DNA of 64,000 nt. Source: Draconibacterium orientale (GTDB lineage Bacteria; Bacteroidota; Bacteroidia; Bacteroidales; Prolixibacteraceae). Made by a program: the position numbers and the translations under genes. The stretch covers positions 2,294,001-2,358,000 of the forward strand of contig NZ_CP007451.1 in the NCBI RefSeq assembly GCF_000626635.1, given 5' to 3'. Under the pieces are notes generated by a model. That model had not been told where the DNA came from and did no database searches. It saw only the letters and a program-made list of their open reading frames with translations. Positions 48,786 to 63,803 of this stretch are shown here, piece by piece (the stretch's first letter is position 1; each line of letters starts with the position of its first letter).

Positions 48786-51191
48786 TTATTTCTGAATTTT
48801 GCGCAGCTTAATTCTCCCGGCCAGGCGCGTTGCAAAAGTGGCAAAAGCAACAACTGAAACGGACGAAATTGGCATTAAAATAGCGGCTACCACCGGCGAA
48901 AGATTTCCGCTGAGGGCAAAAGCAATTCCGACAATATTGTAGCAGAACGAAATAAGGAAGCTGAGTTTTACAATGTTCAGCGATGTTTTGGTGAAGCGGA
49001 TAAAATTAGCCAGCCGGTTAAATTGTTCGGCTTCCAGAACAGCATCGCTGGCAGGCGAGAAATGGTAAACTTTATCGGCAATTGTTAAGGCCACATCGCT
49101 TTGCATCAGCGCACCGGCATCATTCAGCCCGTCGCCCGTCATCAATATGGTATTTCCCTTGTTTTGTAGCGACTTTATAAATGCGGCTTTATCGCCGGGT
49201 TTCTGATTGAAAAGCATGTGCTCCCGATCAAAAAACGATGACAGATTTTCAGCTTCAGCATCATTATCACCCGAAATAAGGAAAAGGTTAAAACCTTGTT
49301 TCAACGCGCTTAATACGTTTTTAAAACCTGTTCGATACTGGTTGCTAATGGTAAAATGGCCTTTCAGTTCATCTTCGATAGCCACATAAACCACCGATGA
49401 TTTTTTCTTTTGCGACTTGGGAGTATTCGTTACATACTCTTCCGATCCGATCCGCAGATTCAGGTCGTTTACTTTCCCAAAAATTCCACGTCCGGCAACT
49501 TCTACAAAATGCTCCGGGTTGTGGTATGCTGATCCGTTAAACGATTGCGAAAGTGCCGCACTCAGTGGATGTGTCGATTGACGCGTAAGTGAAAAAACAG
49601 CTTCTTTTTCCGATGCTGAAAGTTCGGAGCCGGAATACTCCACCTTGTTTTGGTTGGGCTGGGTTAAGGTGCCCGTTTTATCGAAAACAATGCTGTTAAT
49701 GTGCGAAAGTTTTTCAATAATATCGGTGTTTTTAATGTACAAACCGCGCTTGCCAAAAATGCGCATGGTGTTGCCAAAGGTAAACGGAATGGATAGCGCC
49801 AGCGCACACGGACAGGCAACAATTAGTACCGCTGTAAAAACAAAAATGGCCGTATGATATTCGCCGCGAATTGCCCAAAACGTAAAACCGAAAATGGCAA
49901 TGGCAATTACAATCAGCGTGAAGTATTGGCTAATGCGGTCGGACAACGTTTTTAGCGAGTCGCTGGGTTTTTCGTACGATTTATCCTGGTTCCACAGTTT
50001 GGTGAGGTGACTTTGATTCACCTCTTTTTTCACCTTAATGCGAATGATTCCGCCCATTTGGCGGCCGCCGGCATAAATAAAGTCGCCGGGCTTTTTAACA
50101 ATTGGTGTCGATTCGCCGGTAACAAAACTGTAATCGATTCGGCCTTCACCATCAACCAGTTCGGCATCGGCAGGAACCAGCTCTTTGTTACGAATGATCA
50201 GTTCATCATCCACTTCTATTTTTTCAATCAGAATACTTTCTTCAATCTGCTTGTTGATTTTGGTAACGGCAATGGGGAAATACGATTTGTAATTTCGGTC
50301 GAACGAAAGCGCTTCGTAAGTTTTGCTTTGGTACCATTTGCCTACCAGCAGAAAAAAGATGAGGCCCGATAAGCTGTCGCTGTAACCCGGCCCGCCGGTA
50401 AAAATTACCTCGTAACTGGTTACCAGGAAAAGTACAATTATTCCCAATGCGATTGGCAAATCGATGCTGATGTTCTTTTTCAGCAGGTTTTTAATGGCCG
50501 AAATGTAATAATCGCTGCCGCTGTAAAACGCCACCGGAATTACCAGAATGTAACTGAGAATACTAAACAGCGATTGCAGTTTGTCGCTCAGCGGTTCGCC
50601 GTTAAAATAGGCCGGCAAACTGTAGGTCATTACGTTGATAAAAACAAAACCTGCAACGCCAATTTTATACAACAGCTTTTTGTACGATTTGTCGTCTTTT
50701 TTATCGCTTAAACTTTGCGAAAGGTCGGGGATGTAATGAATGGATGCCAGCAACTCAACCACTTGGCGCAGCGAAATTTCCTTTTCGTCGAAAGTAATGT
50801 CAACCTCTTTGCGGGTAAAATTTACAAACGAATGGCGGATGCCCTTGTGAAGTTTGTGCAGGTGTTCGAGCAACCAAATGCACGATGCGCAGTGGATTAC
50901 CGGTACATAAAATTTTACTTTCGAAATGCTGCCTTCAGAAAACGAGATCAGCTTTTCCTTTACTTCATCGTTGTCGAGAAATGCATATTTATTACCAAAT
51001 TCGGTGGTGGTTTCCACTTTTATCCCCGGTGTTTCTTCCAGGTTGTAGTAGTTGTAAAGTTTGTTTTCGTTCAGCAGCTGATACACCGTTTTGCAACCGC
51101 TGCAACAAAAATTCAGCTCGTTCCATACCACCGGATTACTTCCGCAATCGGCACCACAATGTACACAGCTATTCTCCTCCTTTTTCGCCAT
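48786..51191 (-). CDS. ccoI: Copper-translocating P1B-type ATPase (CcoI/FixI type)
   Basis: This protein exports copper across the membrane to supply cbb3 oxidase. An N-terminal Cys-rich zone (SCVHCGADCGSNP and FCCSGCKTVY) is followed by a heavy-metal domain with CASC. The P-type core follows: CPC in IVACPCALAL, phosphorylation site FDKTGTLTQ, HP motif in STHPLSAAL, and TGDGLNDAGALMQSDVALTI. I start at the ATG at 51191; a GTG at 51212 is possible. The CcoI identity rests on its place at the end of the cco cluster and on the Cys-rich N-terminus. Confidence 0.92.
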   Translation of the reverse strand: MAKKEENSCVHCGADCGSNPVVWNELNFCCSGCKTVYQLLNENKLYNYYNLEETPGIKVETTTEFGNKYAFLDNDEVKEKLISFSEGSISKVKFYVPVIHCASCIWLLEHLHKLHKGIRHSFVNFTRKEVDITFDEKEISLRQVVELLASIHYIPDLSQSLSDKKDDKSYKKLLYKIGVAGFVFINVMTYSLPAYFNGEPLSDKLQSLFSILSYILVIPVAFYSGSDYYISAIKNLLKKNISIDLPIALGIIVLFLVTSYEVIFTGGPGYSDSLSGLIFFLLVGKWYQSKTYEALSFDRNYKSYFPIAVTKINKQIEESILIEKIEVDDELIIRNKELVPADAELVDGEGRIDYSFVTGESTPIVKKPGDFIYAGGRQMGGIIRIKVKKEVNQSHLTKLWNQDKSYEKPSDSLKTLSDRISQYFTLIVIAIAIFGFTFWAIRGEYHTAIFVFTAVLIVACPCALALSIPFTFGNTMRIFGKRGLYIKNTDIIEKLSHINSIVFDKTGTLTQPNQNKVEYSGSELSASEKEAVFSLTRQSTHPLSAALSQSFNGSAYHNPEHFVEVAGRGIFGKVNDLNLRIGSEEYVTNTPKSQKKKSSVVYVAIEDELKGHFTISNQYRTGFKNVLSALKQGFNLFLISGDNDAEAENLSSFFDREHMLFNQKPGDKAAFIKSLQNKGNTILMTGDGLNDAGALMQSDVALTIADKVYHFSPASDAVLEAEQFNRLANFIRFTKTSLNIVKLSFLISFCYNIVGIAFALSGNLSPVVAAILMPISSVSVVAFATFATRLAGRIKLRKIQK

Positions 51192-51211
51192 TTCCCAGGG
51201 TCCGTTTTCCA

Positions 51212-51973
51212 CTAATCTACTTTACAACAATCGCCTTTTGTTTCGGTATGCATTGCCGCACTTTCTTTCTCCAGACTTTTTTCAAATTTCTGCTCAATTT
51301 TTTGTTTTGGCGGACTCAAATAAGGGATGCCCAAACTCAATCCACGCAATACAAACAGAATTCCAACCACAACAACCAGTACCGGAATTAGTTTGTTGAT
51401 TCTTTTTCGTACTGCTAAGCTCAAAACGTTTCCTGCCAGCGAAATAGCCAGCAACATGGGAATTGTTCCCAAACCAAAAAGAATCATATACAGCGAACCT
51501 TCTGCAATACCGCCTGTACCAATGGCTCCGGCAATGGCCATATAAACCAGTCCACAAGGCAGCAGTCCGTTTAGCATGCCAATAAAAAACAAACTTTGGA
51601 AAGAGCGGATGGAAAACATTTCGGCAATCTTCTTTTTCAGTTTGCCCACTGCCGAAAACCAGCTTTTATCCATTTTGTACTGGTTTTTAAACAGTTTTGG
51701 GAAAAGCACCGAAATAATCATCAAAGCACCCATAATCACCGATACTTTTTGCTGAAAGCCGATGAGTTGAAGCCCTTGCCCGAGAAGCCCGAAAATGGCT
51801 CCCATAATTCCATAGGTTAAGGTGCGCCCCAGGTTATAAAGGGTTCCTCCGAATATTTTTTGCGCAACGGTGTTGCCGTGAAGTGGCAAAGCTATGGCAA
51901 TGGGGCCACACATGCCGGCACAGTGAAAACTGCCCATCAAGCCTAATATAAGTGCTGAAATAAAAATTGTCAT
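51212..51973 (-). CDS. TauE/SafE-like (DsbD-family) membrane protein
   Basis: The 253-residue protein has six or seven helices with two conserved Cys motifs, SFHCAGMCGP near residue 16 and NGLLPCGLVYMA near 140, as in the cytochrome c maturation or sulfite-exporter-like family found in cco clusters. The tail ends HTETKGDCCKVD, a Cys pair that could bind copper. It lies between ccoH and ccoI in the oxidase assembly group. A role in copper handling or redox supply for oxidase assembly is likely, but the exact function is not known. Confidence 0.82.
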   Translation of the reverse strand: MTIFISALILGLMGSFHCAGMCGPIAIALPLHGNTVAQKIFGGTLYNLGRTLTYGIMGAIFGLLGQGLQLIGFQQKVSVIMGALMIISVLFPKLFKNQYKMDKSWFSAVGKLKKKIAEMFSIRSFQSLFFIGMLNGLLPCGLVYMAIAGAIGTGGIAEGSLYMILFGLGTIPMLLAISLAGNVLSLAVRKRINKLIPVLVVVVGILFVLRGLSLGIPYLSPPKQKIEQKFEKSLEKESAAMHTETKGDCCKVD

Positions 51974-52022
51974 GGCGCTGATTATATGAACAAAAGGTTG
52001 TAATTGATTAAAGGTAGTGAAT

Positions 52023-52463
52023 TTACTGAATATTTACCGGGCGATCAACTTCGTAACGTAAACCGTTGGTGTACCACGTGAATTTTAAAATGTAACGACC
52101 GGCTATCAGCTCGGATTTTGGAAATTGGATCGAATTGTTTCCCGCTAAAACTTCGTGCTTAATGTCTTTTGTGTAATCCGACGGGCGATACAACTGCATA
52201 TTACCGGAATCGATTTTTGTTGCCAGTTCATTTTCAATGCTGATTACCAATGCCTCGTTGTTCAGGTTCACATCAAACGAGCGGGCAAATGGTTTCGACC
52301 GGGCATTTACATTCATCTGTTCGGTATGATCAACACCTTTTTCGTAATAATTTTTATGCACCAGGTTTACCGGCTGGCGCACCGCAAATACAATAAAAAC
52401 GGCCGATCCGGCTAAAAACAACGCCAGAAAAAGAAATATTCCTGTTCCCCAATTAAACTTCAT
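52023..52463 (-). CDS. ccoH: FixH/CcoH oxidase assembly protein
   Basis: The 146-residue protein has one N-terminal membrane helix (FNWGTGIFLFLALFLAGSAV) and the FixH pattern with NLVHKNYYEKGVDHTEQMN, then a beta-rich domain (FDVNLNNEALVISIENE, YILKFTWYTNGLRYEVDRP). FixH helps build or stabilise the cbb3 oxidase. It is between ccoG and the TauE/SafE-like gene. Confidence 0.9.
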   Translation of the reverse strand: MKFNWGTGIFLFLALFLAGSAVFIVFAVRQPVNLVHKNYYEKGVDHTEQMNVNARSKPFARSFDVNLNNEALVISIENELATKIDSGNMQLYRPSDYTKDIKHEVLAGNNSIQFPKSELIAGRYILKFTWYTNGLRYEVDRPVNIQ

Positions 52464-52641: not shown

Positions 52642-54003
52642 TCATGGCCCTACAAACGTGGCCTTGTAGGTTTCAATTAATTCATTATTGCTGAAAACAC
52701 CAAACTCAACCTCGGTTTTGTCGCTGGTAACTTCGCTTTTTGGCAAGAAAAGAATAAATGTTGATTCGTACATATCCTGATCTTTCAAAATTATCGTGTT
52801 TCCGGCCGTTTGAATTTTGCCATCATGAGAGATAACACGCAATTCAAGTGGAAGTTCGTCGTGTGTTTTATTTACAATTTTAATGTTGTAAACGTTCGAC
52901 AGCGTTGAGTCCTGCTCCTGGTAAAGCAAACCCGGTGTGCGCAGAATCGTTGTTTCCAATACCGGCCTCGTAAATAGCGTGTAAACAAAAAACGAGAAGA
53001 TCAACAGCAGCACCATCGAATACGCCCGGTTGCGCGCATTCCATATTGAATTTTGCTGACCTTTTATCTGGGCTTCAGAAGCGTAGCGAATTAAACCCGG
53101 AGGTTTTCCGGTGACATGCATAATTTTGTTGCACTGATCGATACAAGCGGTACAGTTAATACACTCCAGCTGCGAGCCATTGCGGATATCAATTCCGGTT
53201 GGGCACACTGAAATGCACTGTTTGCAATCGGTACAATCGCCATCGCCATGTCCGCCACGCGGTTCGCCGCGCACATAATCGTAGGTAACGGCAATCGATT
53301 TCGAGTCGAGCAGAACACCCTGCATGCGTCCGTAAGGGCAAACCATGGTGCAGATTTGTTCGCGGAAAAACGAATACACCCAATAAAAGAATGCCGAAAC
53401 CAGCAGCATAACCAAAAAGCCGGAAAGGTTCTGGCTAATCGGTTCCTGAATCATTTCAATCCAACGTTCGCTGCCAATAAACCACATCAGAAAAACATTG
53501 GTCATGGCAATCGATATCAGAATGAAAATACCGTGTTTAAGTGTCTTCTTGAATATTTTTTTTGTGGTCCACGGACTGTTATCCAGTTTATGGCGCTCGC
53601 GGTAATCGCCTTCAATCAGGTATTCAATTTTACGAAATACCATTTCCAGAAATATGGTTTGTGGACAAGTCCATCCGCACCATAACCGGCCAAATGTTAC
53701 CGTAAACAATACAACAAAAAGCACAAACGAAAGCATTAACAATGCCAGAATAAAAGTATCCTGTGCCCAAAAAATGGCTCCGAAAATGATAAACTTGCGG
53801 TTAGCTATGTCGAGCAGAATCAGCGGATTGCCATTAATTCGAATAAAGGGTACGCCTACCCAAAACAACAACAAAAAGTAGCTAACTATTGTACGCCGGG
53901 AGAACCATTTTCCCGAAGGCTTTTTGGCATATATCCATTTTCGTCCGCCCCGCTCGTTCCAGTTTATGGGGTAGTCTCTGAAATCGACTTTTTGGTTTGC
54001 CAT
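52642..54003 (-). CDS. ccoG: CcoG (RdxA/FixG) iron-sulfur copper reductase
   Basis: CcoG is a membrane protein with two [4Fe-4S] sites that reduces Cu(II) for cbb3 assembly. The 453-residue protein has five or more helices, VTFGRLWCGWTCPQTIF, then CTDCKQCISVCPTGIDI and CINCTACIDQCNK. The C-terminal external beta domain is FixG-type (NTIILKDQDMYESTFILF). I start at 54003 (MANQKVDF). It is downstream of ccoP. Confidence 0.93.
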   Translation of the reverse strand: MANQKVDFRDYPINWNERGGRKWIYAKKPSGKWFSRRTIVSYFLLLFWVGVPFIRINGNPLILLDIANRKFIIFGAIFWAQDTFILALLMLSFVLFVVLFTVTFGRLWCGWTCPQTIFLEMVFRKIEYLIEGDYRERHKLDNSPWTTKKIFKKTLKHGIFILISIAMTNVFLMWFIGSERWIEMIQEPISQNLSGFLVMLLVSAFFYWVYSFFREQICTMVCPYGRMQGVLLDSKSIAVTYDYVRGEPRGGHGDGDCTDCKQCISVCPTGIDIRNGSQLECINCTACIDQCNKIMHVTGKPPGLIRYASEAQIKGQQNSIWNARNRAYSMVLLLIFSFFVYTLFTRPVLETTILRTPGLLYQEQDSTLSNVYNIKIVNKTHDELPLELRVISHDGKIQTAGNTIILKDQDMYESTFILFLPKSEVTSDKTEVEFGVFSNNELIETYKATFVGP

Positions 54004-54070
54004 ATGTTCAATTTGCATATAAAAAAGATGGGAAACACTGTTCCCCACCATTTTTCGAGGTATTTATTTT

Positions 54071-54643
54071 TTACTCACATTTTTCTCCTTGCGGCTCTTT
54101 CGCATTGGCCGGATTTGTTCCTCTGAGTGTCATAACGTAACTGGCCACTTTTTGGATCTTCTCATCGCTTATTTGCGTTTTATAAGCGGTCATTCCTTTT
54201 GCCGGCACACCATTTTTAATGGTATTAAAAGCACTCTCAAAATCGCACCCGTGCAATGTGTAATCATCCGTCAGGTTTGGTCCAATTGCATTTCCTTCGC
54301 CATTCATGCCGTGGCAGGCCATACATGCTAAATCGGTGTAAATTTGCTTTCCTTCAGCTAGCGATTCTTCATCGGTAAAAGCCACAAGGTCGTCGGCCGA
54401 AATTGATGCGATCTGGTATTTTGCATCGTGCTGCATCGATTTGTGCGCATATTCTTCATCCTGCAGGTTGCCTTCTTTTAACCAGAAGTAATAAGCGCCG
54501 TAAATTATCGACCAGCCAATGGTAATATAAAACAACATCATAATCCATCGTGGCGGCGGATTATCCAACTCCTTAATGCCATCATAATCGTGGTCCATCA
54601 GGTGCTCATCCTGCTCCAATATTTGTTTGTTTTTATCTGACAT
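54071..54643 (-). CDS. ccoP: Cbb3 oxidase subunit CcoP (monoheme form)
   Basis: The 190-residue protein has one N-terminal membrane helix (WIMMLFYITIGWSIIYGAYY) and a single cytochrome c domain with CMACHG and KGMTAYKTQISDEKIQKVAS carrying the axial Met. Typical CcoP has two hemes; this one has one. A similar cytochrome c domain is fused to the end of the CcoNO protein, so the second heme may be supplied there. It follows ccoQ by 11 nt. Confidence 0.92.
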   Translation of the reverse strand: MSDKNKQILEQDEHLMDHDYDGIKELDNPPPRWIMMLFYITIGWSIIYGAYYFWLKEGNLQDEEYAHKSMQHDAKYQIASISADDLVAFTDEESLAEGKQIYTDLACMACHGMNGEGNAIGPNLTDDYTLHGCDFESAFNTIKNGVPAKGMTAYKTQISDEKIQKVASYVMTLRGTNPANAKEPQGEKCE

Positions 54644-54654
54644 AGCTGTATTTT

Positions 54655-54843
54655 TTAAGTATTGATAGGATTAGAATCGCCATCTGTTAGAATTGAATTC
54701 TTTATATCTTCCATTTCCTGGTTGGGAATGCGCATGGTGCGAATGAAGATCACAATAAAAAGCATTACAAAAATGAGTAATCCAATGATGTAAAAGATCT
54801 GGATTCCTTCGATATTTGTTAATAGATTACTTACTATCTTCAT
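54655..54843 (-). CDS. ccoQ: CcoQ-like cbb3 small subunit
   Basis: The 62-residue protein has one membrane helix (FYIIGLLIFVMLFIVIFIR) and a short polar tail, as in CcoQ. It overlaps the ccoNO end by 17 nt, in the usual NO-Q-P order. Confidence 0.8.
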   Translation of the reverse strand: MKIVSNLLTNIEGIQIFYIIGLLIFVMLFIVIFIRTMRIPNQEMEDIKNSILTDGDSNPINT

Positions 54844-57310
54844 TTTCCTTGTTTTGTAGAGTTGTTAATACGTAGCTTGTTAGCTGTGTAATCTGTTTCT
54901 CGGAATATTGCGTTTTATACGGCACCATTCCCTTCGCTACATTTCCTTCCGAAATTGAATGGAAAACTTCCGCAGGCGAGTTTCCGTGCAGCCATTCGTC
55001 ATCCACCAAACTTGGAAATGTTGCAATTCCTTTTCCTTCCGGGCCATGACAGACTACACAGGTTGTTTTAAACATTTTCTCTCCGGCAGCCAGGTCTTCA
55101 GCACTGGTTAAAAGCTTAACCTCTTTCTGGTCGGTGGCTTCTGTAAATGATTCCGAATGTAGTTCAACTTCGGCAACTTCCGGCTGCTCCGAAATGTCTC
55201 TTCCCAGCTTGTGCATGTAGGCAATCATTGCAACGATTTGCTTTTTTGCATCGGTTTCAATACCCGATGCTTTTAAGTCGGCAACAATTCCTTCGGCTTG
55301 CGTAAGGTAATCGTCAACGGCTTTTTCGTCGTATCCTTCGGGGTAAGGAACGCCCAGCGTTTGCATGGCCCTGATCTTTTTCGGAGTTAGCGAAAGATCG
55401 GTGTTTTTAACCGCCAGCCACGCATAATTCGGCATTATCGATTGTTCGTTCATCTTTTGCGGATCCATAAAGTGGTTGTAGTGCCAGGCCGCATTTTTGT
55501 ACATCGGTCCGCCAACCACTCCGGCGCGCGCCAAATCGGGGCCGGTACGTTTCGATCCCCACTGGAACGGATAGTCGTAAACGAACTCGCCAATTTTCGA
55601 GTATTCGCCATAACGATCGGTTTCCCAGCGGAACGGACGAACCATTTGCGAGTGACACACGTAACAACCTTCTTTTACGTACAGGTCGCGACCCTCCAGC
55701 TCAAGCGGCGTATATGGTTTTACCGAATCGATTGTTGGTACGTTCGATTTTATAAATATCATTGGAATAATCTCAACAGCTCCACCAATAGCGAGGGCAA
55801 TAAATACCAGGATAGAGAAACGAACGCCTTTTCTTTCCATCCATCGGTGAACGGTTTCTTTCATCGGGTTGCGGGCTCCGGCCAGCACAAGGGCAGGTGC
55901 TTCGGCAGCTTCGTCGTTAACAAAACTTCCGGCAGCCATTGTTTTTGCCAGGTTGTAAACCATGATAAAGAATCCAACAAGGAACAGAATTCCGGCAGCC
56001 ACACGTGCCATATACATTGGTATCAGCTGTGTTACTGTTTCCAGGAAATTCGGATACTGCAGGAAACCTTCAGGGGTGAAGTTTCTCCACATCAGCCACT
56101 GTGTAACGGCTGCCCAGTAAAGCGGGATGGCATAAATTAAAATTGCCAACGTTGACAACCAAAAGTGAGTATTGGCTAATTTCTCAGAGAATAGTTTTGT
56201 TTTAAACAGTTTTGGAACCAGCCAGTAGAGCATACCAAATACAAGACCTCCGTTCCAGCCCATACCACCAATGTGTACGTGAGCGATGGTCCAGTCGGTA
56301 AAGTGGGTAATTTGGTTTACTGATTTCAACGACATCATCGGGCCTTCGAAAGTTGACATACCGTAAGCCGTTACAGCAACTACCATGAACTTCAGTGCGG
56401 CACTATCGCGAACACGATCCCAGGCACCACGTAGGGTGAGCAGACCGTTTATCATTCCTCCCCAACTTGGTGCTATAAGCATTATTGAGAATGTAGTACC
56501 CAAAGCCTGTGCCCAGTTAGGCAACGCCTGATACAACAAATGGTGTGGCCCTGCCCACATATATAAAAATATAAGCGACCAAAAGTGAATGATCGACAGT
56601 TTGTACGAATAAATTGGACGGTTGGCCGCTTTGGGCAGATAATAATACATTAAGCCCAAAAACGGAGTTGTAAGGAAAAATGCCACGGCGTTGTGGCCGT
56701 ACCACCATTGTACTACTGCGTCTTGTGCTCCTGCATAAATGGAATAACTTTTAAACAATGATATTGGCAACTCGAAAGAGTTTACCACGTGCAACATGGC
56801 CACGCCAAGGAAAGTAGCCAGGTACCACCAAATGGCTGCATAAATATGCTGAACACGACGAACAACAATTGTCCCGATCATGTTCCAACCAAAAACCACC
56901 CAAATAATGGTAATCAAAATATCAATTGGCCATTCCAGTTCGGCATATTCTTTCGAGGTGGTAAATCCGGCCAGCAGCGTAACGGCTGCAAGAACAATGA
57001 TAAGTTGCCAGCCCCAAAAGTGAATTTTGCTTAAAGTATCGCTAAACATTCGGGTTTTCAGCAACTTCTGCATCGAGTAATACACTCCGGCAAAAATGGC
57101 GTTTCCTACAAATGCAAAAATAATGGCGTTGGTATGCAGTGGCCTCACTCTTCCGAAAGTGGTAAATTCGAGACCAAAGTTGAATACTGGGAAGGCGAGC
57201 TGTGCCGCAGCCAAAATGCCTACCAGTACGCCAACAACACCCCAAACCAGGGTGGCCAGAATAAACAACTTAACGATTTTGTTGTCGTAATTAAATTTTT
57301 GATTTTCCAT
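54827..57310 (-). CDS. ccoNO: Fused cbb3 oxidase subunits CcoN-CcoO with extra cytochrome c domain
   Basis: This 827-residue protein is the catalytic subunit of a cbb3 oxidase. Residues ~1-460 are CcoN with heme and CuB His residues (His59, His206, His256-257, His344, His346). CcoO follows with heme site CYVCH (549-553) and PFRWETDRYGEYSKIG. From ~730 a further cytochrome c domain with CVVCH (751-755) and KGMVPYKTQYSEKQI closely resembles CcoP's domain. CcoN-CcoO fusion is known in Bacteroidota; the third domain is less usual. It overlaps ccoQ by 17 nt and ccoS by 20 nt. Confidence 0.95.
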   Translation of the reverse strand: MENQKFNYDNKIVKLFILATLVWGVVGVLVGILAAAQLAFPVFNFGLEFTTFGRVRPLHTNAIIFAFVGNAIFAGVYYSMQKLLKTRMFSDTLSKIHFWGWQLIIVLAAVTLLAGFTTSKEYAELEWPIDILITIIWVVFGWNMIGTIVVRRVQHIYAAIWWYLATFLGVAMLHVVNSFELPISLFKSYSIYAGAQDAVVQWWYGHNAVAFFLTTPFLGLMYYYLPKAANRPIYSYKLSIIHFWSLIFLYMWAGPHHLLYQALPNWAQALGTTFSIMLIAPSWGGMINGLLTLRGAWDRVRDSAALKFMVVAVTAYGMSTFEGPMMSLKSVNQITHFTDWTIAHVHIGGMGWNGGLVFGMLYWLVPKLFKTKLFSEKLANTHFWLSTLAILIYAIPLYWAAVTQWLMWRNFTPEGFLQYPNFLETVTQLIPMYMARVAAGILFLVGFFIMVYNLAKTMAAGSFVNDEAAEAPALVLAGARNPMKETVHRWMERKGVRFSILVFIALAIGGAVEIIPMIFIKSNVPTIDSVKPYTPLELEGRDLYVKEGCYVCHSQMVRPFRWETDRYGEYSKIGEFVYDYPFQWGSKRTGPDLARAGVVGGPMYKNAAWHYNHFMDPQKMNEQSIMPNYAWLAVKNTDLSLTPKKIRAMQTLGVPYPEGYDEKAVDDYLTQAEGIVADLKASGIETDAKKQIVAMIAYMHKLGRDISEQPEVAEVELHSESFTEATDQKEVKLLTSAEDLAAGEKMFKTTCVVCHGPEGKGIATFPSLVDDEWLHGNSPAEVFHSISEGNVAKGMVPYKTQYSEKQITQLTSYVLTTLQNKENEDSK

Positions 57311-57512: not shown

Positions 57513-58388
57513 TTATTCCTCTTTGCCGGCCCGGCTAATTTTAAAAATCTGAAATACTACATAGCCAATGGTTCCCCAGGCTCCCAAAACAGCTGCTAAA
57601 TACGACAGCAAAAGCCAGGTTTGTATATTGTCGTTGGTTGACCAAAGCACTTCTTCTTTAATCAATACCGGAGTAGGTTTTGGCTGTCCTACTTTTGAGG
57701 CGTCAAGCACCACATCTTCGGTAATAAATCCTTCTCCCAAGTCTATAACCAGCGTTACCATTCCCTGTTCGTCACCAATCAGAGTTTCAGGAATGGCATA
57801 TTCTGCACGTCCTTCGTTGTTGGTAAGCACCTCTCCGATAGGGAGTATTCCGAATGCTTTTTGCGCACCAATTGTAATTGGCGTTTCGGCAAGTGCAACA
57901 TAAACACTATCCTTATTCTGGTATTCTGCGAAAACTTCAACAACGCGCTCAGCTTCGTTTACCGAAGCCAGTACTTTTGCTTTTTTTGGCGGTTCTTCTA
58001 CCAGTAATGCTTCGGTATCAGGGCTGTAATTGCGAATGTAATTTACCAAACGCCAGCGGTCGTCTTCCGAAAGAGTGGTTTCGAATTGTGGCATACCACC
58101 GCGCCCGTGTGTAATTTTATAAAACAACTCGCCCTCGGTGTTGGCCTGCATTTGGTCGCTGGTTACATCGGGTGGGGGAGGAACCAATGGTAATCCGTTG
58201 TTTTTCCCCGCATCGCCGTGGCACGATTTACAATTGAGTAAGTAGAGGTCTTTTCCCTTTTTTACATTGGCGAGGTTATATTCTGATGGGTTCTCAATAT
58301 TTTTCTGATCTTCAGGAACCAACCATTCCTGAGCCATTCCCTGCTGGGCAAGAAAAAGGATTGCTACAACTAATAATTTGATCTTCAT
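57513..58388 (-). CDS. Membrane-anchored monoheme cytochrome c
   Basis: The 291-residue protein has a signal peptide (cut after GMAQ, residue 20), one heme c site CKSCHG at 53-58 and axial Met in RGGMPQFETTL. A beta-rich domain spans ~140-240 and a C-terminal membrane helix near 255-280 (WLLLSYLAAVLGAWGTIGYV) ends the protein. It is directly upstream of ccoS and 6 nt downstream of the NrfD gene. It likely takes electrons from the NrfD/ferredoxin module and passes them toward the oxidase. Confidence 0.85.
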   Translation of the reverse strand: MKIKLLVVAILFLAQQGMAQEWLVPEDQKNIENPSEYNLANVKKGKDLYLLNCKSCHGDAGKNNGLPLVPPPPDVTSDQMQANTEGELFYKITHGRGGMPQFETTLSEDDRWRLVNYIRNYSPDTEALLVEEPPKKAKVLASVNEAERVVEVFAEYQNKDSVYVALAETPITIGAQKAFGILPIGEVLTNNEGRAEYAIPETLIGDEQGMVTLVIDLGEGFITEDVVLDASKVGQPKPTPVLIKEEVLWSTNDNIQTWLLLSYLAAVLGAWGTIGYVVFQIFKISRAGKEE

Positions 58389-58394
58389 GGTCTT

Positions 58395-59756
58395 TTATTT
58401 TTTCGGTTCAGCAAGAATTTCTTTGTCAATACCTTTTTCCTCGGCGTACTCCCAAATCGTGATTACCGGGAACATTTTGGCCAGTACAGTAATAATAAGC
58501 AGCGCGGCCATAAAAGAGAAGATGGTAATCATGATCTCGATGCTGGTTGGCGAATAATGTTTGAAATAGTCGGGCACATTCTGTACCGGTAAAAACGGGT
58601 GTTCCAGCGTTGGAACAACAATAATATATCGTTTTAACCACGAGGCAATAAGCACAAAAACAGAAATAATCGTTAATGGTAAAGGTTTTCTGAAAAACGG
58701 GAAAAGCATCAAAAGTATAGGTAGAATTAATCCCAGCATTTGTGCCGACCAGAACATCGGAGCATAACTACCGGTGAACAGGGTGCGCAGGTGAATTCCT
58801 TCAGCCGTTTTCATTTTGTAGGCCGGTACCCAAAATTCGTTGATGTTGAAATACAGGTAAACCAGGCAAACAAAAACCAGCAATTTTCCCATGTAATCGA
58901 AATGCAACTCTTCAAAATAGTCGCCTAAACGGTAACGAACCCTATAGGCATACATTAATATAACAACAGCTGCCGCACCGGCCACAAAAGCGCCGGCCAC
59001 AAAGTAGGGACCGAAAATGGTGGTATCCCAACCCGAACGAAGAGTGGCTGCAAATAACCACGATGTAACGGTGTGAATGGATAAACCAACCGGAAGAATA
59101 AGTATCATAAGCACGCGCATGGAATGTGCTACGAGCTTGTATTGTTTGTCATTTCCTTTCCAGCCAAGTGACAGTATTTTATATACCTGCATTTTCCATT
59201 TCGGAATATCGTCGCCACCACGGTCGCGCAACAATGCAAGGTCGGGAATGAGCGGGATATAATATAACAGTACCGAAATGGTTAGGTAAGTGGTTACAAC
59301 TGTAACGTCCCAGATAATTGGTGAAGCAAAACGTCCGTGCAAAAATACGTTGAGAAAGCGGTCGGGACGCCCCATGTCCATTACAATAATAATTCCGGCA
59401 AGTGCTACTGCTGCAATTGCAATTTGCTCGGCTACCCGCGAAATGGGTTTCGACCAACTGATTTTTAAAAGTTGTAGCGAAGAACTGATTAGAAATCCGA
59501 TCAAACTAACAGCCACAAAAAACACAAAGTTAGCGATGTACATTCCCCACGAAACGTAGTCGCGCATACCGGTAACTCCCAGTCCGTCGCGAATTTGTAT
59601 TCCCCAGCCCCACAAACCAACGGCGGCAAACATTACCAGTATGAAATACCAAAAATGCGTGAGCTCATCGCGTTTTACAATCGAGCGGGTAAGGTCGAAA
59701 GTTATCTTATCCAGTAATTTCCGGGATTCTTCCGGCGATTTTGTTTTTTCCATCAT
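58395..59756 (-). CDS. NrfD/PsrC-family polytopic membrane quinone-binding protein
   Basis: The 453-residue protein has about ten helices and the NrfD/PsrC pattern (MRDYVSWGMYIANFVFFVAV, SLIGFLISSSLQLLKI, MRVLMILILPVGLSIHTVTS). NrfD-type proteins oxidise or reduce quinone at the membrane. It lies between the ferredoxin gene (16 nt) and the cytochrome c gene (6 nt). The length and order are close to the ActC subunit of alternative complex III and to polysulfide reductase membrane subunits. The start may be either of two Met codons. Confidence 0.9.
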   Translation of the reverse strand: MMEKTKSPEESRKLLDKITFDLTRSIVKRDELTHFWYFILVMFAAVGLWGWGIQIRDGLGVTGMRDYVSWGMYIANFVFFVAVSLIGFLISSSLQLLKISWSKPISRVAEQIAIAAVALAGIIIVMDMGRPDRFLNVFLHGRFASPIIWDVTVVTTYLTISVLLYYIPLIPDLALLRDRGGDDIPKWKMQVYKILSLGWKGNDKQYKLVAHSMRVLMILILPVGLSIHTVTSWLFAATLRSGWDTTIFGPYFVAGAFVAGAAAVVILMYAYRVRYRLGDYFEELHFDYMGKLLVFVCLVYLYFNINEFWVPAYKMKTAEGIHLRTLFTGSYAPMFWSAQMLGLILPILLMLFPFFRKPLPLTIISVFVLIASWLKRYIIVVPTLEHPFLPVQNVPDYFKHYSPTSIEIMITIFSFMAALLIITVLAKMFPVITIWEYAEEKGIDKEILAEPKK

Positions 59757-59772
59757 TTAAAGTTTAGTCGGT

Positions 59773-60690
59773 TTATGAGTGGTGATCTTCAATTTCGCCC
59801 TGAAATGGGAAAGCCCTGTCTTTTGGTGGCAGGTAATAAACACGCGGTTTAGTTCCCAGCTCTTCCATTAAAGTATAAGCAGCATTGTCTTTAATTAATT
59901 TGCTGAAACTGGTAGTTTCGTGTGTGGTTCCGTTGGTAACTGCATCTTCGTTTTGGTCGCCAAACCAGTAAACACCGTTGGGGCACGACGAAACACAGGT
60001 TGGTAATTTGCCATCGCGTAAACGGTCGGCGCTAAACAAACACTTCGAAATGGTACCTTTTTTCTGCGGAACGTTGGCTTCAATATTATAAGTTACGCCT
60101 TCGTATTTTTCGGCATCGCGTGGCTCGAACCAGTTAAAAACCCTTGCCGAATACGGACAGGCCGCAATACAGAAACGACAGCCGATACAGCGTTCATTGT
60201 CGATAAGCACAATACCGTCTTCGCGTTTAAAAGTTGCGTTAACCGGGCATACTTTTGTACATGGCGGGTTATCGCAGTGCTGACACGGTTTTGGCATGTA
60301 ATACGGAGCGGTGTGCTCGGCATCCTGCATTTGTAATACATTAATATGGTGTTGCTCCGGACGTAACTGGTGGTGGTTTTGGCAACCCTTCATACATTCG
60401 CGGGCATTGCGGCATTTCGACAAATCGATAACCATCACAAATTTGCGGTTTGGTAAACCTTGTCTTCCCCGCTTCTGATTTTCCGAAAGACTTGGCATAT
60501 CAGCAGGTTTAAGCTGTGCCTTGCTAACTTCAACAAGTTCTCCGCTCGATGTAAGCAGCTTAATTGTGTCTCCCGAGGCGGTCTCCACCTGGTTGCATGA
60601 ACTTAAAAGACTGGAGCCTCCAACTAGTCCGGCTGCACCAACCGACACACCCAACTTTTTCACGAAACTTCTGCGTGATTTATTTTCCAT
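59773..60690 (-). CDS. Exported 4Fe-4S dicluster-type ferredoxin protein (DmsB/NrfC-like)
   Basis: The 305-residue protein starts with a Tat signal (SRRSFVKKLGVSVGAAGL) and a lipobox (LSSC). It carries four sets of Cys: CRNARECMKGCQNHH, CQHCDNPPCTKVCPVNATF, CIGCRFCIAACPYSARVF and CLFSADRLRDGKLPTCVSSC, fitting several [4Fe-4S] clusters. It would pass electrons between the NrfD protein and another partner. No molybdopterin subunit is adjacent. It is the first gene of the leftward respiratory cluster. A possible operator lies upstream at 60719-60742. Confidence 0.9.
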   Translation of the reverse strand: MENKSRRSFVKKLGVSVGAAGLVGGSSLLSSCNQVETASGDTIKLLTSSGELVEVSKAQLKPADMPSLSENQKRGRQGLPNRKFVMVIDLSKCRNARECMKGCQNHHQLRPEQHHINVLQMQDAEHTAPYYMPKPCQHCDNPPCTKVCPVNATFKREDGIVLIDNERCIGCRFCIAACPYSARVFNWFEPRDAEKYEGVTYNIEANVPQKKGTISKCLFSADRLRDGKLPTCVSSCPNGVYWFGDQNEDAVTNGTTHETTSFSKLIKDNAAYTLMEELGTKPRVYYLPPKDRAFPFQGEIEDHHS

Positions 60691-61019: not shown

Positions 61020-61035
61020 CGTGATCAATGTCACA
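61020..61035. promoter_or_regulatory. CRP/FNR-like binding site between two oxidase groups
   Basis: cGTGAtcaatgTCACa fits the palindrome TGTGA-N6-TCACA at nine of ten positions. It lies about halfway between the divergent ferredoxin (60690) and SCO (61364) genes. Oxygen- or redox-sensing CRP/FNR proteins commonly act on such sites. The rest of 60691-61363 is AT-rich and gene-free. Confidence 0.55.
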
Positions 61036-61363: not shown

Positions 61364-62179
61364 ATGAAAAATACTGTAACCTATATTACCACGTTTCTTG
61401 CAGGTATGTTTCTGTTACTTGCCAACATTTCAAATGCTCAAAGTGTAATTAATCCTGCCGCTACCGACGATGATGTTGAAATTGGGGTTGTAGAACATCT
61501 TGACGATTATTTACCCGATAGCATTTCGTTGATTAATGAAGCCGGCGATCAGGTTTGGTTGTCCGATCTTATTGATAAGCCAACAATTCTGAATTTTGTG
61601 TATTACCGTTGTCCCGGAATTTGCAGCCCGCTGATGGAAGCAGTTGCCGGGGTGATGGACAAATCGGACCTTGTTCCCGGAGAAGATTACCAGGTGTTGA
61701 CGATTAGTTTTGATCCGCGTGAAACAATTGATTTGGGAATCAGGAAAAAAACAAATTACCTGCAGCTGATGAATAATCCCGACAAAGTGGAAGAAGCCAA
61801 AACAGGCTGGTTGTTTTTTGTTTCCGACAGTGCAAGCATTGTGAAGGCTACAACCGCAACAGGGTTTAAATACAAAAAAACAGGTAACGATTTTCTGCAT
61901 GCCGCATCGTTAATCGTTGTAAGCCCTGAGCGGAAAATTACCCGTTATTTAAACGGGCTGTACTTTTTACCGTTCGAATGGAAAATGGCCATTGTTGAAG
62001 CATCGAAAGGCCAGTCGGGACCAACATTGAATAAAGTACTTCGGTTTTGTTATTCCTACGATCCGCAAGGACAAACATATGTATTAAATGTAACTAAAGT
62101 AAGCGGAACCATAATTATGTTTTTCGCGCTGGTTTTACTGCTGTTTCTGGTATTAAAACCAAAGAAAAAAGTAAATTAA
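61364..62179 (+). CDS. SCO1/SenC/PrrC copper chaperone
   Basis: The 271-residue protein has a signal peptide and a thioredoxin-fold SCO domain. The copper ligands are Cys83 and Cys87 in CPGIC and His179 in DFLHA, with FDPRETIDL and VYYRCPG around them. A C-terminal membrane helix (TIIMFFALVLLLFLVL) anchors it. SCO proteins deliver copper to CuA or CuB of oxidases. It is 10 nt before the subunit I gene. Confidence 0.93.
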   Translation: MKNTVTYITTFLAGMFLLLANISNAQSVINPAATDDDVEIGVVEHLDDYLPDSISLINEAGDQVWLSDLIDKPTILNFVYYRCPGICSPLMEAVAGVMDKSDLVPGEDYQVLTISFDPRETIDLGIRKKTNYLQLMNNPDKVEEAKTGWLFFVSDSASIVKATTATGFKYKKTGNDFLHAASLIVVSPERKITRYLNGLYFLPFEWKMAIVEASKGQSGPTLNKVLRFCYSYDPQGQTYVLNVTKVSGTIIMFFALVLLLFLVLKPKKKVN

Positions 62180-62189
62180 ACTAAACTTT

Positions 62190-63803
62190 ATGCATACAAC
62201 AAATGCTGTTAATGGAGCAAACTACCTCACCTATCAGGGAAAGTACAAAGGTTTGCTCGGATGGATTTTTTCCACTGACCATAAACGTATTGGTCTTCTT
62301 TATTTGTATTCGATAGCTACCATGTTTGCAACTGGTGTTTTGCTGGGGCTTGCCATGAAATTTGAATTGCTGGCGCCCGGAAAAACAATTATGGATGCGC
62401 AAACCTACAACGCTACGTTTACCGTTCATGGTGTTATAATGATTTTTATGGTTGTTGTGCCCGGTTTACCCGCGGTTTTCGGAAACCTGATGTTGCCTAT
62501 AATGATTGGTGCAAAAGATGTTGCTTTTCCAAAACTCAACCTGCTCTCGTGGTGGCTTTATGTAACCGGCGTGGTTTTGGTGCTTTGTGCATTGCTGTTT
62601 GGCTCGGGAACTCCCGACACCGGCTGGACCTTTTACGCACCTTACAGTTTTAAAAGCGGAACCAACCTGCTGCCTGCCATATTCGGGGCATTTGTATTGG
62701 GTTTCTCGTCCATTCTTACCGGACTAAACTTTTTGGTGACCATTCACCGCTTACGTTGCCCCGGCATGAAATGGACCAAACTTCCTTTATTTGTTTGGAC
62801 ACTCTACGGAACAGCCTGGATTCAATTACTGGCAACTCCGGTTGTGGGTATCACTTTGGTGTTAGTTGCTCTTGAACGAGTTTTCGGAGTTGGTGTTTTC
62901 GATCCGGCACTGGGAGGCGATCCTGTTTTGTATCAGCACCTGTTCTGGATTTATTCGCACCCGGCAGTTTATATTATGATTTTGCCTGCCATGGGAGCCA
63001 TTTCCGAAATTATTCCAACCTTTTCGCAAAAACATATTTTTGGTTACAAAGCAATTATTGCTTCCACTATGGCCATTGCATTTGTGGGCTACCTGGTTTG
63101 GGGCCACCACATGTTTACAGCCGGAATGAGTGGAACAGCACAATATTATTTTTCACTCCTCACATTTATTGTTGCCATACCAAGTGCAATAAAAGTATTT
63201 AACTGGATATCGACGATGTATAAGGGGGCGATCAATATCCAAACGCCCTTTTACTGGGCAGTGTCATTTATTTTTGTGTTTATGGTTGGTGGTTTAAGCG
63301 GCCTTGTTTTGGGTGCTCTGGCGACCGATATTTACGTGCACGACACTGCCTTTGTTGTTGCCCACTTCCATTACATTGTTTTTGGAGGAACAGGCTTTGC
63401 CTTTTTTGCGGCAATGCACTACTGGTTCCCAAAAATATTTGGAAGAATGTATGATAAGGCCTGGGCCAATGTTGGCTGGCTGATTTTCACCATTGGTTTT
63501 CTGGCGTTGTATTCGCCCATGTTCTATTTGGGAATGATGGGGATGCCAAGGCGTTATTACGACTACCTCGAAGAGTTCCATGGAGGAAATATCCTGAGCA
63601 CTATTGGCTCGTGGGTATTGGTAACCGGTTTTATCATCATTGTTACCAATCTGATTCGCTCGGCGCGAAAAGGAGAACCGGCCGAAATGAATCCGTGGCA
63701 CAGTAAAACTCTGGAATGGACAGTTACTTCGCCGCCACCTGTATTAAATTTTGAGAAAGAACCTGTTCTGGGAGAAAAAGACGGACCTTATAACTATGAC
63801 TAA
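62190..63803 (+). CDS. Cytochrome c oxidase subunit I (A2-type heme-copper oxidase)
   Basis: This 537-residue polytopic enzyme has 12 or more helices and the heme-copper ligands: His80 (heme a), His257 in YSHPAVY (255-261), His306-307 in GHHMFTAG, and His392/His394 in VAHFHYI. The Glu of the D-channel in HPEVY is replaced: YSHPAVY is the signature of A2-type oxidases, as in Rhodothermus marinus. It follows the SCO gene and is followed directly by subunit III. CuA-bearing subunit II is not seen in this window. Confidence 0.95.
   Translation: MHTTNAVNGANYLTYQGKYKGLLGWIFSTDHKRIGLLYLYSIATMFATGVLLGLAMKFELLAPGKTIMDAQTYNATFTVHGVIMIFMVVVPGLPAVFGNLMLPIMIGAKDVAFPKLNLLSWWLYVTGVVLVLCALLFGSGTPDTGWTFYAPYSFKSGTNLLPAIFGAFVLGFSSILTGLNFLVTIHRLRCPGMKWTKLPLFVWTLYGTAWIQLLATPVVGITLVLVALERVFGVGVFDPALGGDPVLYQHLFWIYSHPAVYIMILPAMGAISEIIPTFSQKHIFGYKAIIASTMAIAFVGYLVWGHHMFTAGMSGTAQYYFSLLTFIVAIPSAIKVFNWISTMYKGAINIQTPFYWAVSFIFVFMVGGLSGLVLGALATDIYVHDTAFVVAHFHYIVFGGTGFAFFAAMHYWFPKIFGRMYDKAWANVGWLIFTIGFLALYSPMFYLGMMGMPRRYYDYLEEFHGGNILSTIGSWVLVTGFIIIVTNLIRSARKGEPAEMNPWHSKTLEWTVTSPPPVLNFEKEPVLGEKDGPYNYD

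Follow-up and report, generated by a model that had tools for sequence, protein, structure and literature searches.

Which proteins carry electrons from menaquinol to the cytochrome c oxidases of Draconibacterium orientale? The question is raised by three adjacent genes (57513-60690) of the window, the whole 64,000-nucleotide (nt) stretch of DNA analysed here (assembly GCF_000626635.1, contig NZ_CP007451.1, positions 2,294,001 to 2,358,000 of the forward strand). The genes, referred to below as the trio, encode an iron-sulfur (Fe-S) protein, a membrane protein of the NrfD family and an anchored monoheme cytochrome c, in a genus of the family Prolixibacteraceae. An initial annotation of the window, made from the sequence alone, read the trio as a minimal alternative complex III (ACIII) without ActA or a molybdopterin part, tied to a cbb3 rather than an A-type oxidase. 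The analysis described here suggests that the three proteins probably form one compact membrane-bound menaquinol:cytochrome c oxidoreductase, ACIII-like in its work and a separate, smaller assembly, that would feed both caa3 and cbb3 oxidases.

The trio genes lie on the minus strand in the order Fe-S, NrfD, cytochrome c, separated by 16 and 6 nt, as initially annotated. The stop codon of the cytochrome gene abuts the start codon of a ccoS-like gene with zero gap (TAA-ATG), and ccoS overlaps the start of ccoNO by 20 nt, so the last trio gene does run straight into ccoS-ccoNO; the ccoNO fusion is followed by a one-heme ccoP, ccoG and further cbb3 genes. A divergent SCO-coxI-coxIII-coxIV-coxII-ctaB operon begins on the plus strand at 61364, 0.67 kb from the Fe-S gene, and crosses the window end. 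A PF00115 search of the genome placed the trio between its only two COX1-family genes. The initial annotation missed this caa3 operon and also the complete ACIII described below, both of which lie outside the interval that it covered. Relatives were compared in two sets: a named set made up of the best 80 loci of at least 535 relatives, in which the nearest include Maribellus and Draconibacterium, and a sample of 149 genomes of the order, the window's own included.

The Fe-S protein begins with a twin-arginine motif (SRRSFVKK), carries a lipobox-like LSSC sequence ending at C32, and matches Fer4_11 and related Pfam families, with Fe-S domains only. Its AlphaFold2 model has a mean predicted local distance difference test (pLDDT) score of 82.6. 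Fourteen cysteines are invariant across 46 aligned rows. The second cysteine is replaced in motif I by A96 and in motif IV by S220, and these replacements are common among relatives: the motif I position is Ala in 29/30 and the motif IV position Ser in 26/30 of a 30-row set, and a pattern scan of 75 Fe-S proteins from the named loci found Ala in 69/75 and Ser in 60/75 (3 unscorable for motif IV). Motif III is complete, with C168, C171, C174 and C178 all invariant in the 46 rows, whereas the ActB of the same genome has Thr at the C171 position. Under the NarH ligand scheme, which we assume to apply here, the two membrane-proximal cluster sites would be complete and the two distal sites would have three cysteines each. 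In ACIII, the available part of one study identifies the near-quinol cluster as [3Fe-4S], the implied primary acceptor, and leaves the role of the distal wire open (PMC5928083). Judged by its cysteines, the trio protein would not have such a [3Fe-4S] site near the quinol.

The NrfD protein matches PF03916 (1.2e-34) and has about ten hydrophobic segments in a hydropathy scan read by eye. At E ≤0.1 it matched no solved structures other than ACIII subunits (four ActC and, weakly, one ActF), with ActC closest (E 1.6e-51); a profile search at E ≤0.01 returned four ActC and two ActF. Residues S145, D150 and R376 align with Ser164, Asp169 and Arg395 of Rhodothermus ActC, D127 aligns with His139 and K375 with Glu394, and all five are invariant in both 31 and 15 aligned NrfD rows. 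If roles are assigned after the accessible text of PMC8076601, D127, S145 and D150 would be quinone-site equivalents and R376 the gate equivalent. The gate arginine is itself a proposal, given that the Qrc variant R358A still allowed growth and activity, according to the portion of PMC13059093 that was available. In its pairing of a PF03916 protein with a multi-Fe-S subunit, and in the conserved pocket serine (S145), the trio fits the NrfD/PsrC superfamily as a molybdopterin-free member.

The cytochrome has a signal-like N-terminus, one CxxCH motif and a C-terminal helix. An AlphaFold2 model built from 54 rows (mean pLDDT 92.5) consists of a heme domain (~39-119), an Ig-like beta domain (~135-217) and the helix (~257-290). 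C53, C56, H57 and M99 are invariant in all 54 rows. Sequence and fold searches with the heme domain rank ActE near the top, behind a cytochrome c552, and the Ig-like domain had no strong match (Big_1 in 2/54 rows). Together, the twin-arginine start, the Pfam matches and the C-terminal helix bear out the earlier description of a twin-arginine translocation (Tat)-exported multi-cluster Fe-S protein, an NrfD protein and an anchored cytochrome c. In some named loci the cytochrome is split in two, the anchor being a protein without heme and the small cytochrome c a protein of its own, as seen from sequences in L143, L148 and L129 and from the BLAST label in L135, L140 and L144; three genes of ~450, 130 and 300 aa recur upstream in the split-cytochrome loci, and downstream in L140.

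The gene order of the trio is widely retained. The Fe-S gene, the NrfD gene and a gene for a trio-cytochrome-like protein, heme-bearing or heme-less, are consecutive in 75 of the 80 named loci. Counts based on a longest-open reading frame (ORF) filter miss genes that lie under longer opposite-strand ORFs (e.g., L066), hence a recount by tblastn, which found the heme-bearing order at 26/32 relative loci from 31 genomes of the order (L069 is a split form). The other six loci, without a heme-bearing cytochrome match, comprise L050 (NrfD alone), three loci at contig ends (L055, L051 and L071) and two with a heme-less anchor (L062 and L070). At L041 the Fe-S gene is broken into two frames. Retention of the order in 75/80 named and 26/32 order loci indicates that the trio is not a chance arrangement.

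The genes next to the trio are most often those of an oxidase. A locus was called caa3-linked if coxI was among the first six same-strand downstream genes, and cbb3-linked if ccoNO was among the first five. By these rules, 28 of the 80 named loci lead into a caa3 operon (L098 by way of cbb3 genes), 18 lead into cbb3 genes and one leads into SCO at a contig end; of the remainder, L146 leads into a genuine act operon, six stop too early to be classed, and L138 together with 25 further loci leads into other genes. In the order set, many assemblies of which are fragmented, trio NrfD and an A-type coxI are at most 12 kb apart in 11/19 genomes that carry the two; for trio NrfD and cbb3 the count is 4/18. 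The corresponding figures for ActD, subject to the same fragmentation, are 9/19 near an A-type coxI and 0/7 near cbb3. Since caa3 is the commoner neighbour, the initial proposal that the trio is tied to cbb3 rather than to an A-type oxidase was wrong. The layout of the window, with a divergent caa3 operon and downstream cbb3 genes, is also seen in L083, L084, L085 and L091, and L086 has the divergent caa3 genes and ends before any cbb3 genes. In caa3-linked loci a protein of 120-170 aa often lies between the trio cytochrome and SCO; the copy at L119:7853-8233 has no Pfam match.

Additional evidence came from the distribution of the trio and of ACIII across the order. An NrfD match at 1e-10 was present in 51/149 genomes, and the 33 matches of at least 43% identity, spread over 32 genomes, were taken as trio-type. 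Matches below 43% (sister family, ActC and weaker) were set aside, the next value below 44% being 39%; COX1 matches weaker than 1e-105 were likewise set aside (nitric oxide reductase-like, other, or fragments), and G014 was taken as A-type on a partial ORF. These identity and oxidase class cuts were set by eye. FixO is present in 22/149 genomes and ActD in 23/149; by the E-value cut, 33/149 have an A-type COX1. A caa3/A-type or cbb3 oxidase is present in 43 genomes: 20 of them carry trio-type NrfD and no ActD, 14 carry ActD only, seven, including the window's own, carry both, and two (G010 and G136) carry neither. The 43 span 37 family labels, and the 20 trio-only genomes span 19. All three trio genes are present in 19 of these 20, the Fe-S gene of G017 being in two frames. 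Fisher tests, which ignore kinship, gave p 7.6e-14 for the co-occurrence of trio and oxidase and p 1.2e-4 for mutual avoidance of trio and ActD among the 43. The family was found in 8/296 genomes of a phylum sample at E ≤1e-75, own included, which indicates that it belongs mainly to this order.

These data bear on whether the Fe-S and NrfD genes are related to electron supply at all. They might be unrelated passengers, with the cytochrome serving as an oxidase donor fed by ACIII, and the window's genome does contain ACIII. This explanation is scarcely credible given that nearly half of the oxidase-bearing genomes keep trio-type NrfD without an ActD match, almost always with the full trio. In the window's own genome, a 5.13-Mb assembly in one contig, a PF03916 search found three NrfD genes: that of the trio, that of ACIII and one in a pair at L008. 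The complete ACIII lies at L007:5320-13438, 1.08 Mb from the trio. Its actC was called by PF03916 and its actD by PF11821; actA (six CxxCH), actB, actE and actF are named from order, size and motifs. The 20 kb read around it contain no adjoining oxidase gene. An ACIII elsewhere had been named in the initial annotation as evidence against its reading, and a full set is indeed present; bc1 genes, named in the same way, are not, in that searches of the genome for Rieske (PF00355) and bc1-type cytochrome b (PF00033) proteins gave no match at 0.001. The pair at L008:8950-13478 consists of an NrfD gene and a gene for a four-motif Fe-S protein, located between two glycine-cleavage-H-domain proteins, one of which has a weak, below-cut-off phosphate-binding-protein-like match; an apparent sensor kinase and response regulator follow on the same strand.

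Several observations weigh against the trio being the dedicated quinol oxidoreductase of these oxidases. The window's genome carries ACIII as well, 25/80 named loci are classed as other (two of them, L118 and L122, hold a ccoI- or ccoG-like gene), and the neglect of kinship and the cuts made by eye limit the order-wide counts. G057, counted as trio-only, has the NrfD gene alone. Five of the 32 trio-type genomes (G016, G022, G036, G058 and G070) lack both an A-type and a cbb3 oxidase under the cut, G022 and G058 having weaker COX1-family matches above the family cut-off. Other routes from quinol are also encoded. Among the 20 trio-only genomes, PF00033 was found in G020 and PF00355 in G020, G053 and G100; only G020 has both, as a Rieske and cytochrome b gene pair that is another possible route. 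PF03264 (NapC/NrfH) matched in 21/23 genomes searched, 19 of them above cut-off; the trio-only genomes G057 and G064 had no match, and G002 and G134 only weak ones. Since NapC/NrfH quinol dehydrogenases are present in most of the genomes searched, the trio is the best, not the sole, candidate for passing electrons from quinol to cytochrome. Finally, the available part of a study of Flavobacterium johnsoniae ACIII reports that monoheme ActE is dispensable and that ActA is required for electron flow to aa3 (PMC8552683); given this dependence on ActA, the trio cannot copy that path exactly. As a separate observation, the G020 pair (L179:1601-4704) consists of a Rieske-like gene and, directly downstream, a cytochrome b gene whose product has a fused tail with 11 CxxCH motifs, and PF00033 matches ORFs of 907-928 aa in six more genomes.

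Some of these observations are what would be expected if the trio were a general NrfCD-like quinol dehydrogenase that supplies a periplasmic cytochrome pool, and through it oxidases, nitrate or nitrite enzymes and other acceptors, rather than a dedicated complex III. The trio-type genomes without a recognised oxidase are consistent with this model, as are the subtypes in which the anchor lacks heme and the small cytochrome c is a distinct protein. So are two named loci (L138:5531-11949 and L159:13317-19325) in which the genes after the trio encode a diheme cytochrome, a NarG-like protein of 1203 aa (molybdopterin domains tested against Pfam in L159 only) and a NarH-like protein with one CxxCH. 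L060, in an order genome, has a NarG-like neighbour judged from size and order alone. The occurrence of the trio beside unrelated terminal reductases, also anticipated in the initial annotation as contrary evidence, is thus real in small part (2/80 and L060), with oxidases otherwise the commonest neighbours. However, no other kind of neighbour comes close to oxidase operons in frequency (47/80 loci, counting SCO at a contig end), and the trio and ACIII substitute for each other among oxidase-bearing genomes. A general dehydrogenase is a possibility that we hold only tentatively.

The similarity of the NrfD protein to ActC, the ActE-like heme domain and the shared genomic slot raise the alternative that the trio is a minimal ACIII by descent, left after loss of ActA, ActB1, ActD and ActF. 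However, in a tree with four ActC rows and an unknown root, ActC forms its own clade (100/100) on a long stem, unmixed with trio rows. The best NCBIfam models are DsrO for the Fe-S protein (183.4 bits, under the 200 cut-off) and DsrP for the NrfD protein (138.7 bits, under the 350 cut-off). The Fe-S ligands also differ, with C171 where the ActB of the same genome has Thr, and motifs I and IV one cysteine short each. Descent from ACIII is therefore unlikely, and two trees considered for that question were not used to draw a rooting, given the few ActC rows and faulty DsrP rows (L192, L194 and L203 are likely wrong frames with very long branches; p-AU was 0.0496 for one trio clade). What stands of the initial reading is an ACIII-like job, in view of the NrfD/ActC likeness, the ActE-like heme and the replacement of ACIII across genomes; the implied descent is not supported. 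A sister Fe-S/NrfD family (L171-L178, ~33-38% NrfD identity) is likewise a clade apart from the trio rows. Four of its eight loci (L171, L172, L174 and L178) have an extra heptaheme cytochrome and a gene of the size of a b561-type cytochrome, and in several loci a small cytochrome c and an anchor protein without heme are encoded as well; L171, the only sister locus tested against Pfam, also has a DUF5777 beta-barrel protein.

If the trio is a menaquinol:cytochrome c oxidoreductase, menaquinol would be oxidised at a site of the NrfD subunit on the periplasmic side. In the Tat-exported subunit, the membrane-proximal Fe-S clusters would take up the electrons and hand them to the one heme of the anchored cytochrome, the three proteins acting as one complex with whatever proton movement may accompany the reaction. 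The two distal Fe-S sites, each one cysteine ligand short, are perhaps reduced or bypassed. From the cytochrome, electrons would go on to the oxidases, entering caa3 at the heme c domain of CoxII (CoxII-c) and cbb3 at that of CcoO, CcoP or the CcoNO tail; by leaving through one heme they would take another route than in the ActA-dependent F. johnsoniae enzyme. In the window's genome, with its full ACIII, the trio may be an oxidase-dedicated or low-oxygen branch. The opposite direction, in which a hypothetical periplasmic donor would reduce the cytochrome and, through it, quinone, with the oxidase linkage incidental, has a precedent in the related QrcABCD, which runs that way according to the available part of PMC13059093. 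No donor enzyme was seen in the trio or in the oxidase operons of the window, and the trio lies directly upstream of a same-strand oxidase operon in 46/80 named loci, which makes reverse flow very improbable.

On balance, we lean slightly towards a broader proposal: in addition to bc1 and ACIII there would be a third type of complex III, widespread and made up of a compact Fe-S/NrfD/monoheme-c assembly, that would serve as the main menaquinol:cytochrome c oxidoreductase for caa3 and cbb3 in a large share of Bacteroidales/Marinilabiliales, and multiheme, molybdopterin-like and second NrfD parts would be dispensable for that job. The two textbook complexes leave many Bacteroidota unexplained, as is illustrated by the 20/43 oxidase-bearing genomes in this sample that keep trio-type NrfD without an ActD match, G020 alone among them having both Rieske and cytochrome b matches. 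If the trio does this job, it would be a natural minimal counterpart of ACIII, and one could ask which ACIII parts (heme wire, second NrfD, Mo-like domain) serve electron transfer and which serve proton movement. Annotations of such genes as DsrOP, NrfCD or ACIII would then also need correction.

The features of the locus are collected in Table 1. Some of the names are provisional: ccoS is named for features typical of CcoS, with no hidden Markov model (HMM) match behind it, and the ccoH-like and ccoI-like genes and, beyond the window, coxIII, coxIV, coxII and ctaB are named from their sequences. The ccoH-ccoI block recurs in many cbb3-linked relatives among the 80 named loci, and the cox genes recur across named loci. 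Since ccoNO has an additional cytochrome c domain and ccoP a single heme c (54071-57310), it is as if a heme domain had shifted between subunits; long-form FixO ORFs (813-857 aa) are present in 11 of the 22 FixO-bearing genomes of the order. The window has a single match to a CRP/FNR-like site (GTGA-N6-TCAC), at 61021 in the region of the divergent promoters; 10 relatives gave one match at another distance (L095), and the site was dropped.

Table 1. Genes of the trio and of the flanking oxidase operons, in window coordinates unless a locus is named
Feature	Coordinates	Strand	Basis or remark
Fe-S subunit, 305 aa	59773..60690	minus	NrfC/DsrO-like; Tat-exported, probably lipid-anchored at C32
NrfD-like membrane subunit, 453 aa	58395..59756	minus	PF03916; ~10 hydrophobic segments
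Anchored monoheme cytochrome c, 291 aa	57513..58388	minus	one CxxCH
ccoS-like small protein, 73 aa	57291..57512	minus	translation
ccoNO fusion with extra C-terminal cytochrome c domain, 827 aa	54827..57310	minus	PRK14485, ccoN and ccoO above cut-offs
ccoP, FixP_N and single heme c	54071..54643	minus	Pfam match
ccoG	52642..54051	minus	TIGR02745 above cut-off
ccoH-like, small membrane protein and ccoI-like P-type ATPase genes (remaining cbb3 cluster)	48786..52463	minus	
SCO-like copper chaperone, opens divergent caa3 operon	61364..62179	plus	PF02630
A-type cytochrome c oxidase subunit I (coxI)	62190..63803	plus	Pfam and NCBIfam matches
coxIII, coxIV, cytochrome-bearing coxII, ctaB	L006:5751-8929 (past window end)		after coxI

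No description of the trio was found in the literature searched, which left out most subscription-journal papers, and Table 1 and the taxonomic section of a 2021 survey of NrfD complexes list no such oxidase-linked trio. The closest comparison is with ACIII, which comprises six conserved subunits, ActA-F, according to the part of PMC5928083 available. Like the ACIII of Rhodothermus marinus and F. johnsoniae, the trio combines an ActB2-like Fe-S protein, an ActC-like NrfD protein and an ActE-like monoheme domain, adjoins cytochrome c oxidase operons, and retains the quinone-site Ser and Asp. In contrast to ACIII, the operon has only the Fe-S, NrfD and monoheme cytochrome c genes ahead of the cbb3 genes, without multiheme ActA, ActD or ActF, and the Fe-S protein does not have the make-up of ActB, in which a molybdopterin-like B1 part is joined to an Fe-S B2 part. 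Motif III has a full cysteine set, two other motifs are each one cysteine short, and the cytochrome is anchored through an Ig-like domain and a C-terminal helix. Given the absence of ActA, ActB1, ActD and ActF from the operon, and the different Fe-S ligands, the trio is not a member of ACIII.

There are also parallels with DsrO, DsrP and DsrJ of DsrMKJOP, which combine a Tat Fe-S protein, an NrfD-like protein and a cytochrome c and provide the best NCBIfam models. One difference is that the trio scores under the curated cut-offs; in addition, its cytochrome is monoheme rather than triheme, and its context is one of oxidases, not sulfur. No DsrM or DsrK was seen by eye in the neighbouring ORFs of the window, with no HMM search aimed at either. 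Lone NrfCD pairs, such as that of Melioribacter roseus, are described in the available text of PMC3534657 as quinol:acceptor reductases. They resemble the trio in being molybdopterin-free NrfC/NrfD pairs with a supposed role in quinol oxidation and in electron supply to periplasmic c-type cytochromes. Unlike the trio, they are linked there not to O2 reductases but to a hypothetical Fe(III) reductase (nitrite in the case of NrfABCD) and to cytochromes of the multiheme type, and that text describes no dedicated anchored monoheme cytochrome.

A looser precedent is already in print for cable bacteria, where a DsrOhPh-tetrahaem locus (pACIII) is termed a “candidate alternative complex III” in the accessible parts of PMC11976967 and PMC13047784. 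As described there, it has a phylogeny near DsrP, also combines Fe-S, NrfD and c-type cytochrome proteins, is proposed to pass electrons from quinone to periplasmic cytochromes, and is found in hosts without a known complete complex III. Compared by description only, it differs in having a tetraheme cytochrome, where the trio has one CxxCH, and an extra one-helix protein, in belonging to Desulfobulbaceae, and in having no oxidase operon linkage in those published descriptions. Cytochrome bc1, finally, shares with the trio the proposed role of a quinol:cytochrome c oxidoreductase, which the trio would perform without a Rieske protein or cytochrome b.

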